A stretch of 64,000 bases of DNA. Origin: Methylobacterium sp. Leaf117. GTDB lineage: Bacteria; Pseudomonadota; Alphaproteobacteria; Rhizobiales; Beijerinckiaceae. The stretch covers positions 271,603 to 335,602 of the forward strand of contig NZ_LMNL01000034.1 in assembly GCF_001422985.1 (NCBI RefSeq), in the 5' to 3' direction. Positions 43,556 through 46,413 of this stretch are shown here, in pieces. Each line of letters opens with the position of its first letter. Position 1 is the first letter of the stretch. The notes under the pieces are model-generated. The model was given only the letters and a program-made list of their open reading frames with translations, was not told the origin of the DNA and did no database searches. The translations under genes and the position numbers were made by a program.

Positions 43556-43633
43556 GGCTGCGACATCGCGCCAGCGGACGAGGCGGGAATTCGCGCGCGA
43601 AAACTTGAACGAAAGGCGAACGAGGCGCATTTC

Positions 43634-44854
43634 GTGTCGATGGACGAACTCCTCGCGAAGAAGCTGCGCATCCTCGCCGATGCCGCCAAGTACGACGCCT
43701 CGTGCTCGTCGTCCGGGGCGCCCAAGCGCACGGCCGGCAAGGGTGAGCTCGGCTCGACCACCGGCGCCGGCATCTGCCACGCCTATACGCCGGACGGGCG
43801 CTGCATCTCGCTTCTGAAGATCCTGCTGACGAATTACTGCCTGTTCGACTGCGCCTACTGCGTCAACCGGCGCTCCTCCAACGTGCAGCGGGCGAAATTC
43901 ACCGTCGAGGAGGTCGTGACCCTCACGGTGGAGTTCTACAAGCGCAACTACATCGAGGGCCTGTTCCTTTCGTCGGGCATCATCAAGTCGCCCGACCACA
44001 CCATGGAACTGCTGACGCGGGTGGCCAAATCCCTGCGGCGCGACCACGGTTTTCGCGGCTACATCCACCTGAAGTCGATCCCGGAGGCGAGCCCCTGGCT
44101 GATCGAGGAGGCGGGCCTCTATGCCGACCGGCTGTCGATCAACGTCGAACTGCCCACCGAGGCGAGCCTGGAGCGCTTGGCCCCCGAGAAGGACGGCGCC
44201 GTCATCCAGAACGCCATCGCGCAGATCGGCGAGCGCATCGCCGAGGCGAAATCCGAGAAGCGCCGGTTCTCACCGGCCGGACAGTCGACGCAGGTCATCG
44301 TCGGGGCCGACGCCACCACCGACGAGGCGCTGATCCGCAAGAGCGCGCTGCTCTATGGCTCGTACAACCTCAAGCGGGTCTATTACTCGGCCTTCAGTCC
44401 GATTCCCGACGGCTCCACCATCCTGCCGCTGGCCGCGCCCCCGCTCCAGCGCGAACACCGTCTGTACCAGGGCGACTGGCTGCTGCGGTACTACGCCTTC
44501 ACGCCCGACGACGTGGCCGACGCCACCGAGAACGGCATGCTCTCCCTCGACATCGACCCGAAGCTGGCCTGGGCTCTGAAGCACCGGGCGCGCTTTCCCG
44601 TCGACGTGAACGCCGCCGACCGCGAGATGCTGCTGCGGGTGCCGGGTCTCGGGGCGCGCGCCGTCGACAAGATCATCCGCGCCCGGCGCCATACGCGCCT
44701 GCGTCTCGACGACGTCGCCCGCCTGACCTCGGCCCTCAAGCGGGCAAGGCCCTTTCTCATCGCCGCCGACTATCACCCGGCGGGCGGGCTCACCGACCGG
44801 CTCGATCTTCGGGCACGGTTGGCCGACCCTCCGAAGCAGCTGAGCCTGTTCTGA
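43634..44854 (+). CDS. Putative DNA modification/repair radical SAM protein
   Basis: A 406-residue radical SAM enzyme. The iron-sulphur cluster motif CLFDCAYC at residues 69-76 has the CxxxCxxC spacing. The barrel continues with GLFLSSGI and SINVELPTE, and the C-terminus has a helix-hairpin-helix-like region (NAADREMLLRVPGLGARAVDKII) that could bind DNA. This matches the family annotated as 'putative DNA modification/repair radical SAM protein', usually next to a UdgX/DUF4130 gene, as here (2-base gap). GTG 43634 has GAGG about 8 bases upstream; ATG 43640 is an alternative. The chemistry is undescribed as far as I know. Confidence 0.88.
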   Translation: MSMDELLAKKLRILADAAKYDASCSSSGAPKRTAGKGELGSTTGAGICHAYTPDGRCISLLKILLTNYCLFDCAYCVNRRSSNVQRAKFTVEEVVTLTVEFYKRNYIEGLFLSSGIIKSPDHTMELLTRVAKSLRRDHGFRGYIHLKSIPEASPWLIEEAGLYADRLSINVELPTEASLERLAPEKDGAVIQNAIAQIGERIAEAKSEKRRFSPAGQSTQVIVGADATTDEALIRKSALLYGSYNLKRVYYSAFSPIPDGSTILPLAAPPLQREHRLYQGDWLLRYYAFTPDDVADATENGMLSLDIDPKLAWALKHRARFPVDVNAADREMLLRVPGLGARAVDKIIRARRHTRLRLDDVARLTSALKRARPFLIAADYHPAGGLTDRLDLRARLADPPKQLSLF

Positions 44855-44856
44855 GG

Positions 44857-46413
44857 ATGAAGACGCGAGCGCCCTCCGATCCGACGGTGGAGGACGGCCA
44901 TACCCAGACAGCACGCGGGCAGCACGGTGCCCCTCTCCCGAAAGAAGAGGGCCCGGGCGACTCGCCTGCGGAGGGCGGCGGGTTCGGGACCTCGTCCCTC
45001 GACGCCGTTGATCTGCGACCGGGCGCCGATCTCGACGGCTTCCGCGCCGCAGCCCGCCGTCTCGCGGGTCGGGGCGTTCCGCCGGAGCGGGTGTTGTGGT
45101 CCATCGGAGAGACGCCTGGGCTGTTCGGGGCGCAGGGTCCGGCCCTGGCCGACGAGCCCCCCTTGAGCCTGCCGCGCGGAGTCGGCGCGATGGTCGGCAG
45201 GGTGGTGCCGCACCGCGACCCGGAGCGCTATGCCCTGCTCTACGGGCTGATCTGGCGCATCCTGCACGGGGAGCGCCGGCTCCTGGAGGTGTCGAGCGAT
45301 CCCCTGGTCCATCGGCTCGAGCGGATGGGCAAGGCCATCGCCCGCGACCTGCACAAGATGCACGCCTTCCTGCGCTTCCGCCGGGTCGAGGGTGACGGTC
45401 CGGAGCGCTTCGTGGCGTGGTTCGAGCCCGACCATCACATCCTGGGCGCGGCGGCCCCGTTCTTCGTCGAGCGCTTCCGCTCCCTGAACTGGACCATCCT
45501 GACGCCGGAGGGCTCGGCCCGCTGGGACGGCACCAGCCTCGCCTTCGGTCCGCCGGGGCGACGCGAGGACGCACCGGAGGCGGACGGCTTCGAGGCGGGT
45601 TGGCGCGATTACTACGAGAGCACCTTCAATCCCGCCCGCACCAACCTCGCGGCGATGCGGGCGGAGATGCCGAAGAAGTATTGGCGCAACATGCCGGAGA
45701 CCGCCGCGATCCCGGGCCTCGTCCGGCAGGCGGCGGCCCGCACGGGCGCCATGATCGAGAGGGAGCCGCAAATGCCGGTCAAGCGCAATCCTGCCCGCGC
45801 CGTGGCGGCCATGGCCGATCAGGCCCCGGATTCGCTGGAGGCGCTCAACGCCATCATCCGGCGCTCGGAGCCGCTGGTGCCGGGCGCGACCCAAGCCGTT
45901 CTCGGCGAAGGCCCGGTCGGCGCCACCATCGCCTTCGTGGGCGAGCAGCCCGGCGACCAGGAGGACCGCCAGGGACGGCCCTTCGTGGGGCCGGCGGGGC
46001 AGTTGCTGGCCCGCGCGATGGGCGAGGCGGGAATCGTGCGCGGCGCGGCCTACCTCACCAATGCGGTCAAGCACTTCAAGTTCGAGGAGCGCGGCCAGCG
46101 CCGCATTCACCAGAAGCCCACCGCCGGCGAGGTCAGCCATTATCGCTGGTGGCTGGAGCGGGAACTCGACTTCGTGGCGCCCAAGCTCGTGGTGGCACTC
46201 GGCGCCACCGCCGTGCTGGCCCTGACCGGCAAGGCGATCCCGATCACCCGGGCGCGCGGCCCCGCCGACTTCGCCAAGCCGTTCCAGGGCTTCATCACGG
46301 TGCACCCGTCCTATCTGCTGCGCCTGCCGGACGCCGCGAAGGCCGAGGCCTACGCCGCCTTCGTCGACGACCTGCGCCGGGTCCACGATCTCGGGCAATC
46401 GCTGGCGGCCTGA
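44857..46413 (+). CDS. udgX: DUF4130-UdgX fusion (uracil-DNA glycosylase/crosslinking protein)
   Basis: A 518-residue two-domain protein. Residues about 55-320 are the DUF4130 'SAM-associated DNA metabolism' domain (RYALLYGLIWRILHGERR, HKMHAFLRFR, WFEPDHHILGAAAPFF). Residues about 325-518 are a UdgX uracil-DNA glycosylase with GEQPGDQEDRQGRPFVG (from 362), the R-loop RRIH ending at H418, and VHPSY (H483). In UdgX the R-loop His forms a covalent bond with the sugar after uracil removal; the residue before RRIH is Gln here instead of Lys. Residues about 20-48 coincide with a dispersed repeat-like element. Coupled to the radical SAM gene. Confidence 0.9.
   Translation: MKTRAPSDPTVEDGHTQTARGQHGAPLPKEEGPGDSPAEGGGFGTSSLDAVDLRPGADLDGFRAAARRLAGRGVPPERVLWSIGETPGLFGAQGPALADEPPLSLPRGVGAMVGRVVPHRDPERYALLYGLIWRILHGERRLLEVSSDPLVHRLERMGKAIARDLHKMHAFLRFRRVEGDGPERFVAWFEPDHHILGAAAPFFVERFRSLNWTILTPEGSARWDGTSLAFGPPGRREDAPEADGFEAGWRDYYESTFNPARTNLAAMRAEMPKKYWRNMPETAAIPGLVRQAAARTGAMIEREPQMPVKRNPARAVAAMADQAPDSLEALNAIIRRSEPLVPGATQAVLGEGPVGATIAFVGEQPGDQEDRQGRPFVGPAGQLLARAMGEAGIVRGAAYLTNAVKHFKFEERGQRRIHQKPTAGEVSHYRWWLERELDFVAPKLVVALGATAVLALTGKAIPITRARGPADFAKPFQGFITVHPSYLLRLPDAAKAEAYAAFVDDLRRVHDLGQSLAA

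Follow-up and report, generated by a model that had tools for sequence, protein, structure and literature searches.

A radical SAM–DUF4130 gene pair beneath a LexA-type box, with an optional and here cysteine-free UdgX domain, in Methylobacterium sp. Leaf117

This study concerns a radical S-adenosylmethionine (SAM) gene and the adjoining gene for a DUF4130–UdgX fusion, both located on a 64,000-nucleotide stretch of DNA from Methylobacterium sp. Leaf117 (contig NZ_LMNL01000034.1, positions 271,603–335,602 of the forward strand; hereafter the window). The pair is a member of an already known and named NCBIfam set (TIGR03916, TIGR03915 and TIGR03914) that carries no assigned reaction. PMC3765255 describes DUF4130 as a predicted mutagenesis-related enzyme linked with SplB-like radical SAM proteins and uracil-DNA glycosylases (UDGs), and ties DUF4130, together with radical SAM proteins, to the SOS response. 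PMC8565304 places a COG1573–COG4277 operon under LexA in Bacteroidetes, cites earlier reports of such LexA control in Verrucomicrobia and Alphaproteobacteria (Caulobacter), and reads the operon as a putative UDG-based excision repair system. According to PMC9380542, the Streptomyces LexA regulon contains a radical SAM protein that is left unidentified there. For the UdgX of M. smegmatis (MsmUdgX), PMC10359453 reports a 4Fe-4S cluster, the roles of residues E52, N91, H109 and H178, and a signature composed of R107/H109 and Q53. The literature that was searched gave no account of the reaction of the pair, in agreement with a preliminary description of the window, made from its letters alone, that took the two genes for a DNA repair system and considered their reaction not yet established.

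All three families of the NCBIfam set are represented in the window over their cut-offs and in the usual order. The radical SAM protein (ORF A, where ORF stands for open reading frame; TIGR03916, rSAM_link_UDG) is encoded on the plus strand at 43634..44854 with a GTG start and an alternative in-frame ATG at 43640, and its 406 residues score 549.5 bits (cut-off 343.5). We take this protein to be COG4277, and the COG4277–COG1573 operon is probably the present pair. ORF B, called at 44857..46413 on the plus strand, encodes 518 residues without a single cysteine. Its DUF4130 domain (residues 58–282; 45028..45702) scores 191 bits against TIGR03915 (cut-off 112.25) and 129.1 against Pfam DUF4130 (cut-off 27), and its UdgX domain (residues 285–509; 45709..46383) scores 294.4 bits against TIGR03914 (cut-off 189.95) and also exceeds the Pfam UDG cut-off. 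The preliminary description had located both genes correctly; it did not mention the existing family names and missed a LexA-type box, three extra invariant cysteines in ORF A and the cysteine loss in UdgX. The box, GAAC-N7-GAAC, occupies 43607..43621 on the plus strand and ends 12 nt before the GTG of ORF A; on the opposite strand it reads GTTC-N7-GTTC, the alphaproteobacterial LexA motif as given in PMC8565304. The locus therefore resembles the operon of that paper in having a LexA-type box upstream, but the interpretation found there centers on the glycosylase, whereas the constant pair here consists of the radical SAM and DUF4130 proteins and UdgX is optional.

Co-occurrence was surveyed with the three models in 299 genomes of the phylum of the window (Pseudomonadota), 239 of which pass a completeness filter, and the counts are raw and uncorrected for kinship. 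Matches over the cut-off are found in 53 (radical SAM), 56 (DUF4130) and 52 (UdgX) genomes. DUF4130 accompanies the radical SAM gene in 53 of 53 genomes; 51 of these have it on the same strand, no more than 1.5 kb downstream, and in the other two the distance is ∼3 kb. UdgX is present over the cut-off in 40 of the 53 genomes, adjoins DUF4130 in 39 and is absent in 13, and 12 genomes contain UdgX over the cut-off without the radical SAM gene. DUF4130 over the cut-off lacks a radical SAM companion in three genomes, as open DUF4130–UdgX fusions in G200 and G217 and as a truncated DUF4130 frame in G287. Parabacteroides, Fusobacterium, Subdoligranulum and Acinetobacter stretches and a faecal phage-labelled contig contain the radical SAM and DUF4130 genes with no UdgX match within the ∼9 kb examined. 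Likewise, the control genome Bacteroides ihuae matches TIGR03916 and TIGR03915 but not TIGR03914. Scans of viral contigs for more distant relatives returned the same two contigs or none. The constant elements are thus the radical SAM protein, DUF4130 and the box, and UdgX is optional; UdgX was rejected as an obligate partner of the radical SAM protein. The association made in the preliminary description accordingly holds for DUF4130 (missing in 0 of 53) and not for UdgX, without which the radical SAM gene often occurs. The pair deserves attention because 53 of the 299 genomes carry it, records from three further phyla do as well, and it stands under an SOS-type box. With UdgX optional, the two-protein core and species that lack UdgX are the natural starting points for experiments. 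In one surveyed genome (G155), a further radical SAM frame (NAYRGCEHGCIYCFARPT; L015:350-1495) lies beside the operon on the opposite strand, and the UdgX part and DUF4130 are in different frames.

The box is retained at its position across relatives. In the alphaproteobacterial genomes, a set delimited by kinship labels that run from 'same genus' up to 'same class', the alphaproteobacterial box occurs within 300 nt upstream of the radical SAM gene in 36 of 36, compared with 1 of 36 for a reversed-pattern control. CTGT-N8-ACAG and GAAC-N4-GTTC are LexA motifs as well. An exact CTGT-N8-ACAG box is found in 12 of the 17 other survey genomes (reversed control, 0 of 17), and the same box with one mismatch in G237, G286 and G261. 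Among further contig loci, for which the best 80 of 590 confirmed and hence close relatives were used, the alphaproteobacterial box is present in 76 (control, 1 of 80) with a median distance of 39 nt between it and the first modelled codon downstream. Random windows of loci contained the motif in 49 of 5120 cases. These per-group counts supersede a pooled count of 99 of 114 loci, which mixes groups and leaves L007, L009, L011, L064, L085, L094, L001 and L117 unscored (motif mismatch). The argument is carried by the conserved position of the box because the bare motif is not rare: it occurs at 149 places in this genome, three of them in the window, versus 80 places for the reversed pattern.

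The box also occurs where UdgX is absent (e.g. G023, G046, G190 and G298) and in G200 and G217, which have no radical SAM match. UdgX genes that are not next to an over-cut-off DUF4130 lack a box in the 567–707 nt examined upstream in 12 of 13 cases (14 were listed, and the contig-edge piece in G194 was set aside). The box therefore follows the radical SAM–DUF4130 unit and not UdgX. The single solo UdgX with a box, in G071, also carries a DUF4130 remnant. At that locus (C1:5486827-5487696; L169, L212), UdgX follows a LexA-type box and a short DUF4130 remnant with a stop, as if the radical SAM gene and most of DUF4130 had been deleted and the box and UdgX had remained.

The pair is best explained, with a probability of roughly 0.6, as an SOS-induced DNA-lesion-processing module that acts beside translesion synthesis and uses UdgX as an optional trap for uracil or apurinic/apyrimidinic (AP) sites. 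The sequence basis is as follows: the two genes follow each other below a LexA-type box, the radical SAM protein has a helix-hairpin-helix (HhH)-like tail of the DNA-binding type, its DUF4130 partner is never missing in the survey, and the optional fused UdgX has intact catalytic residues. The conserved boxes, the error-prone polymerase genes that adjoin the pair in some loci, the LexA-type motifs ahead of other frames in this genome and the SOS link made in PMC8565304 and PMC3765255 also speak for this explanation. The pair is probably switched on upon DNA damage through the SOS response: damage would lead to LexA cleavage and to expression of the operon alongside translesion polymerases. The radical SAM–DUF4130 pair would then bind damaged DNA, with DUF4130 as the nucleic-acid-binding partner, and a 5'-deoxyadenosyl radical would attack a replication-blocking base lesion or a damaged sugar, probably assisted by a second Fe–S cluster held by C24, C48 and C57 of ORF A. 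At the same forks, the fused UdgX would trap uracil or an abasic site covalently via H418, and this attachment would shield the site until downstream repair.

Several observations weigh against this explanation. None of the alphaproteobacterial, CTGT-N8-ACAG and GAAC-N4-GTTC boxes is found in the Parabacteroides, Fusobacterium, Subdoligranulum, Acinetobacter and phage-labelled stretches, and GGA-N5-TCC matches in two of these five stretches lie over 200 nt away and were not counted as boxes. Because these five stretches have no convincing box, the support obtained here for SOS control comes solely from within Pseudomonadota; for Bacteroidetes it comes from PMC8565304. Even there, G074 and G094 have no box, and four of the best 80 of 590 loci (L075, L081, L084 and L090) lack the alphaproteobacterial box. 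Moreover, LexA need not bind wherever a box is present, and the motif is fairly common. G200 and G217 keep an intact DUF4130–UdgX fusion and the box without a radical SAM match, and the DUF4130–UdgX half may therefore work alone. Finally, the nucleic-acid-binding role of DUF4130 would depend on a weak fold resemblance. The AlphaFold2 model of ORF B residues 56–285 (predicted local distance difference test (pLDDT) score of 87.7) had no Foldseek match in the PDB at an E value of 0.001 (best E, 0.055). The structures that rank highest against it are mostly RecJ, Cdc45 and further proteins of the DHH type, with Z scores of 6.7 and lower, below the trust level of 8, and a root-mean-square deviation (rmsd) of 4.1 over 169 residues for the best. 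The resemblance to the DHH/DHHA1 (RecJ-like) fold is only a hint of nucleic-acid binding.

ORF A contains the SAM-cluster motif recognized in the preliminary description, CLFDCAYC, as C69-x3-C73-x2-C76, and the CX3CX2C pattern is invariant in 44 of 44 alignment rows; the protein narrowly passes the Pfam Radical_SAM cut-off (29.7 versus 29.5). Closer to the N-terminus, C24, C48, H49 and C57 are invariant in 13 of 13, 7 of 7 and 44 of 44 rows of three alignments that include members of Bacteroidota, Fusobacteriota and Bacillota. C24, C48 and C57 perhaps hold a second Fe–S cluster. This cluster is tentative, since the AlphaFold2 model of ORF A (pLDDT 84.7) is unsure at the N-terminal cysteines, with residues 19–30 and 42–57 under 50. 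A sister protein from Gemmatirosa (L117:4998-6236) scores 303.4 bits against TIGR03916, under the cut-off, and lacks the N-terminal cysteines, and its 11 kb locus contains no DUF4130 match. This one case is in line with a connection of the cysteines to DUF4130. The Gemmatirosa protein possibly represents a separate family beneath the curated cut-off. The C-terminal tail of ORF A (residues 307–364) is HhH-like, as the preliminary description had suggested, but its HHH_3 and HHH_5 scores (22.4 and 22.2 bits) fall below the Pfam cut-off of 27, and its match to a ComEA-related chain is weak (E 0.022).

Among the structural neighbors listed for the ORF A model, HydE, lipoyl synthase, HydG and biotin synthase rank first. 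HydE is closest (Z 16.2, rmsd 2.9, 216 residues), and human lipoyl synthase (LIAS; Z 15.9, rmsd 3.9, 231 residues) aligns from residue 1, which leaves the two tied within 1 Z. Lipoyl synthase has cysteines just ahead of its SAM cluster motif with a CX4CX5C spacing, and ORF A similarly places cysteines ahead of the motif. ORF A differs from lipoyl synthase and HydE in the spacing of these cysteines (C24, C48 and C57), the HhH-like tail and the DUF4130 partner. A more specific proposal, which we regard as rather unlikely, is a radical-based branch of SOS translesion synthesis: a radical SAM enzyme with a lipoyl-synthase-like auxiliary Fe–S cluster at its N-terminus would perform C–H activation, perhaps sulfur transfer, directly on damaged DNA, docked by DUF4130 to the ImuB/DnaE2 fork, and in this lineage an Fe–S-free UdgX would shield abasic sites covalently. 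If true, the repair chemistry would be of a type not described to our knowledge.

Direct reversal of UV thymine photoproducts, in the manner of spore photoproduct lyase (SplB), would agree with the SOS-type box and with the SplB-like label in PMC3765255, which links radical SAM enzymes of this kind to SOS and DNA repair. The reading is nevertheless improbable, with the enzymes named above at the head of the listed neighbors of the ORF A model. No photoproduct lyase is among the structural matches listed, which by itself does not speak against such an activity.

The UdgX domain of ORF B is related to the solved M. smegmatis UdgX structures (E 3e-40; PDB 6iod, 6ail and others), with which it shares the GEQPG, R-loop RRIH and HPS motifs. 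The UdgX signature is present as GEQPG (motif A, Q53) and as QRRIH in the R-loop (R107, H109), and the active-site residues are E363 (E52), N402 (N91), H418 (H109) and H483 (H178). The catalytic columns E52, Q53, R107, H109, H178 and R184 are conserved in 95–97 of 98 rows and N91 in all 98, a count that includes the window's own copy (L001) and a family-4 UDG (L002). The assignment of H418 as the R-loop histidine in the preliminary description was correct, and the active site appears intact in sequence. The domain is a UdgX variant, filed as such by its R-loop signature only.

The domain differs from MsmUdgX, a 4Fe-4S protein according to PMC10359453, in having lost the conserved cysteines, in the replacement of K105 by Q and in its fusion to DUF4130. 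Such a cluster is typical of UdgX but does not belong to the signature given in that paper. Three conserved cysteine columns read S, E and Y in ORF B. These cysteines and the His of NAVKH are presumably the cluster ligands, as in family-4 UDGs. Across 93 UdgX domains (98 rows minus L001, L002, L015, L053 and L076), all three cysteines are present in 74, none in 19, and one or two in no domain; in this respect the window UdgX and its five congeners, with none, differ from most NCBIfam relatives. An unrooted tree, built without the cysteine columns and used to count changes, requires two changes to explain the cysteine label; a single change sufficed in 0% of 200 bootstrap trees. One cysteine-less group comprises Methylobacteriaceae, a Xanthobacteraceae member, Hyphomicrobium, Azospirillum, Acidocella and others, and the second comprises four Rhodobacteraceae-type rows, in all four of which the His of NAVKH is also substituted. 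The changes are read as losses because the solo UdgX genes (13 of 13) and the family-4 UDG L002 have the cysteines, and we infer that loss happened at least twice. The window UdgX thus seems to have lost its Fe–S cluster with its catalytic residues intact. If such a cysteine-free UdgX is active, the Fe–S cluster would be dispensable for uracil crosslinking, and the protein would possibly be a sturdier tool for mapping uracil in DNA. L002 lies in the same genome (G000 C1:287888-288433) and is a family-4-type UDG with the cysteines present and no R-loop.

The intact UdgX active site also bears on a plain uracil-removal role, in which UdgX counters uracil introduced by error-prone polymerases and the radical SAM protein serves chiefly as an accessory that binds DNA. 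The reading of the operon as UDG-based excision repair in PMC8565304 and the radical SAM-less G200 and G217 loci favor this role. We consider it doubtful, however, because the SAM-cluster cysteines never vary across the rows examined, which argues for catalysis by the radical SAM protein, and because loci that lack UdgX retain both the box and the order of the genes.

In the preliminary description, the radical SAM enzyme was suggested, as one of two possibilities beside a radical reaction on DNA, to release the covalent UdgX–DNA (His–C1') complex. The operon and fusion linkage, including the adjacency of UdgX to DUF4130 in 39 genomes, and the intact crosslinking residues agree with this idea. 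It is nonetheless highly improbable: of the 53 genomes with the radical SAM and DUF4130 genes, 13 have no UdgX over the cut-off, no UdgX match was found in the Bacteroidota, Fusobacteriota and Bacillota stretches examined, another 12 genomes have UdgX but no radical SAM gene, and the box tracks the radical SAM–DUF4130 pair and not UdgX. Since UdgX is present over the cut-off in only 40 of the 53 genomes, release of the crosslink is unlikely to be what the radical SAM protein does in general, and the proposal that the enzyme exists for this purpose is not supported. An epigenetic or anti-phage DNA-modifying pair, as the NCBIfam label 'putative DNA modification/repair protein' might suggest, is very unlikely given the LexA-type box, the error-prone polymerase genes that adjoin the pair in some loci and the lack of a PADLOC match for either protein at an E value of 0.01, on which the anti-phage role was rejected.

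Of the 82 loci searched, 8 carry the error-prone polymerase genes on one strand with the pair, in the order imuA-imuB-radical SAM-DUF4130-UdgX-dnaE2. The arrangement is partial in three loci (L053, L103 and L092) and divergent in Henriciella (L067), and imuA/imuB lie ∼7 kb away in L081. The identity of DnaE2 is firm (1272 bits). ImuA and ImuB were named from matches below the cut-off (23.6 and 23.7 bits) and from gene order. All eight loci between imuA-imuB and dnaE2 belong by title to Erythrobacteraceae or other Sphingomonadales, and the linkage therefore reflects few events. No imuA-imuB/dnaE2 neighbors were identified in the flanks of the pair in the window.

The ORF upstream of ORF A is RecX-like, so that the preliminary placement of the pair after recX stands as a resemblance, with scores under the curated cut-offs (62.6 versus 258 bits and 24.8 versus 26). 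A recX gene is found in 3 of the 82 loci and adjoins the pair, upstream on the same strand, in two, both Methylobacterium. It is accordingly local context only and was rejected as a functional partner. The 2-base gap between ORF A and ORF B, also noted in the preliminary description, is present as called, but the start of ORF B and hence the gap are uncertain because its first ∼45 residues do not align to the Methylobacterium relatives L033 and L034. The corresponding stretch (44857-44995) is unconserved, possibly untranslated and present as a single copy in the genome. A repeat-element origin of this N-terminal stretch was rejected, since a 96-base stretch of it is present once in the genome.

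Elsewhere in this genome, the LexA-type motif occurs up to ∼250 nt upstream of ImuA, UmuD-like, topoisomerase IV, DNA polymerase III alpha and PA0069-family frames, some of which are fragments or below the cut-off. These belong to 12 places that were hand-picked from the 149 for their spacers as an illustration and not as a test. At one picked place (L157) the box falls within a polymerase reading frame, and at another (L160) the protein that was scanned had no match. At L161 (G000 C1:291224-291238), GTTC-N7-GTTC lies just upstream of the PA0069-family frame, which makes its radical SAM product a second candidate in this genome for SOS control. At L156 (G000 C23:258014-258028), a parC-like frame for topoisomerase IV subunit A has a LexA-type box directly ahead of it, which recalls the SOS control of parCE described for Bacteroidetes in PMC8565304.

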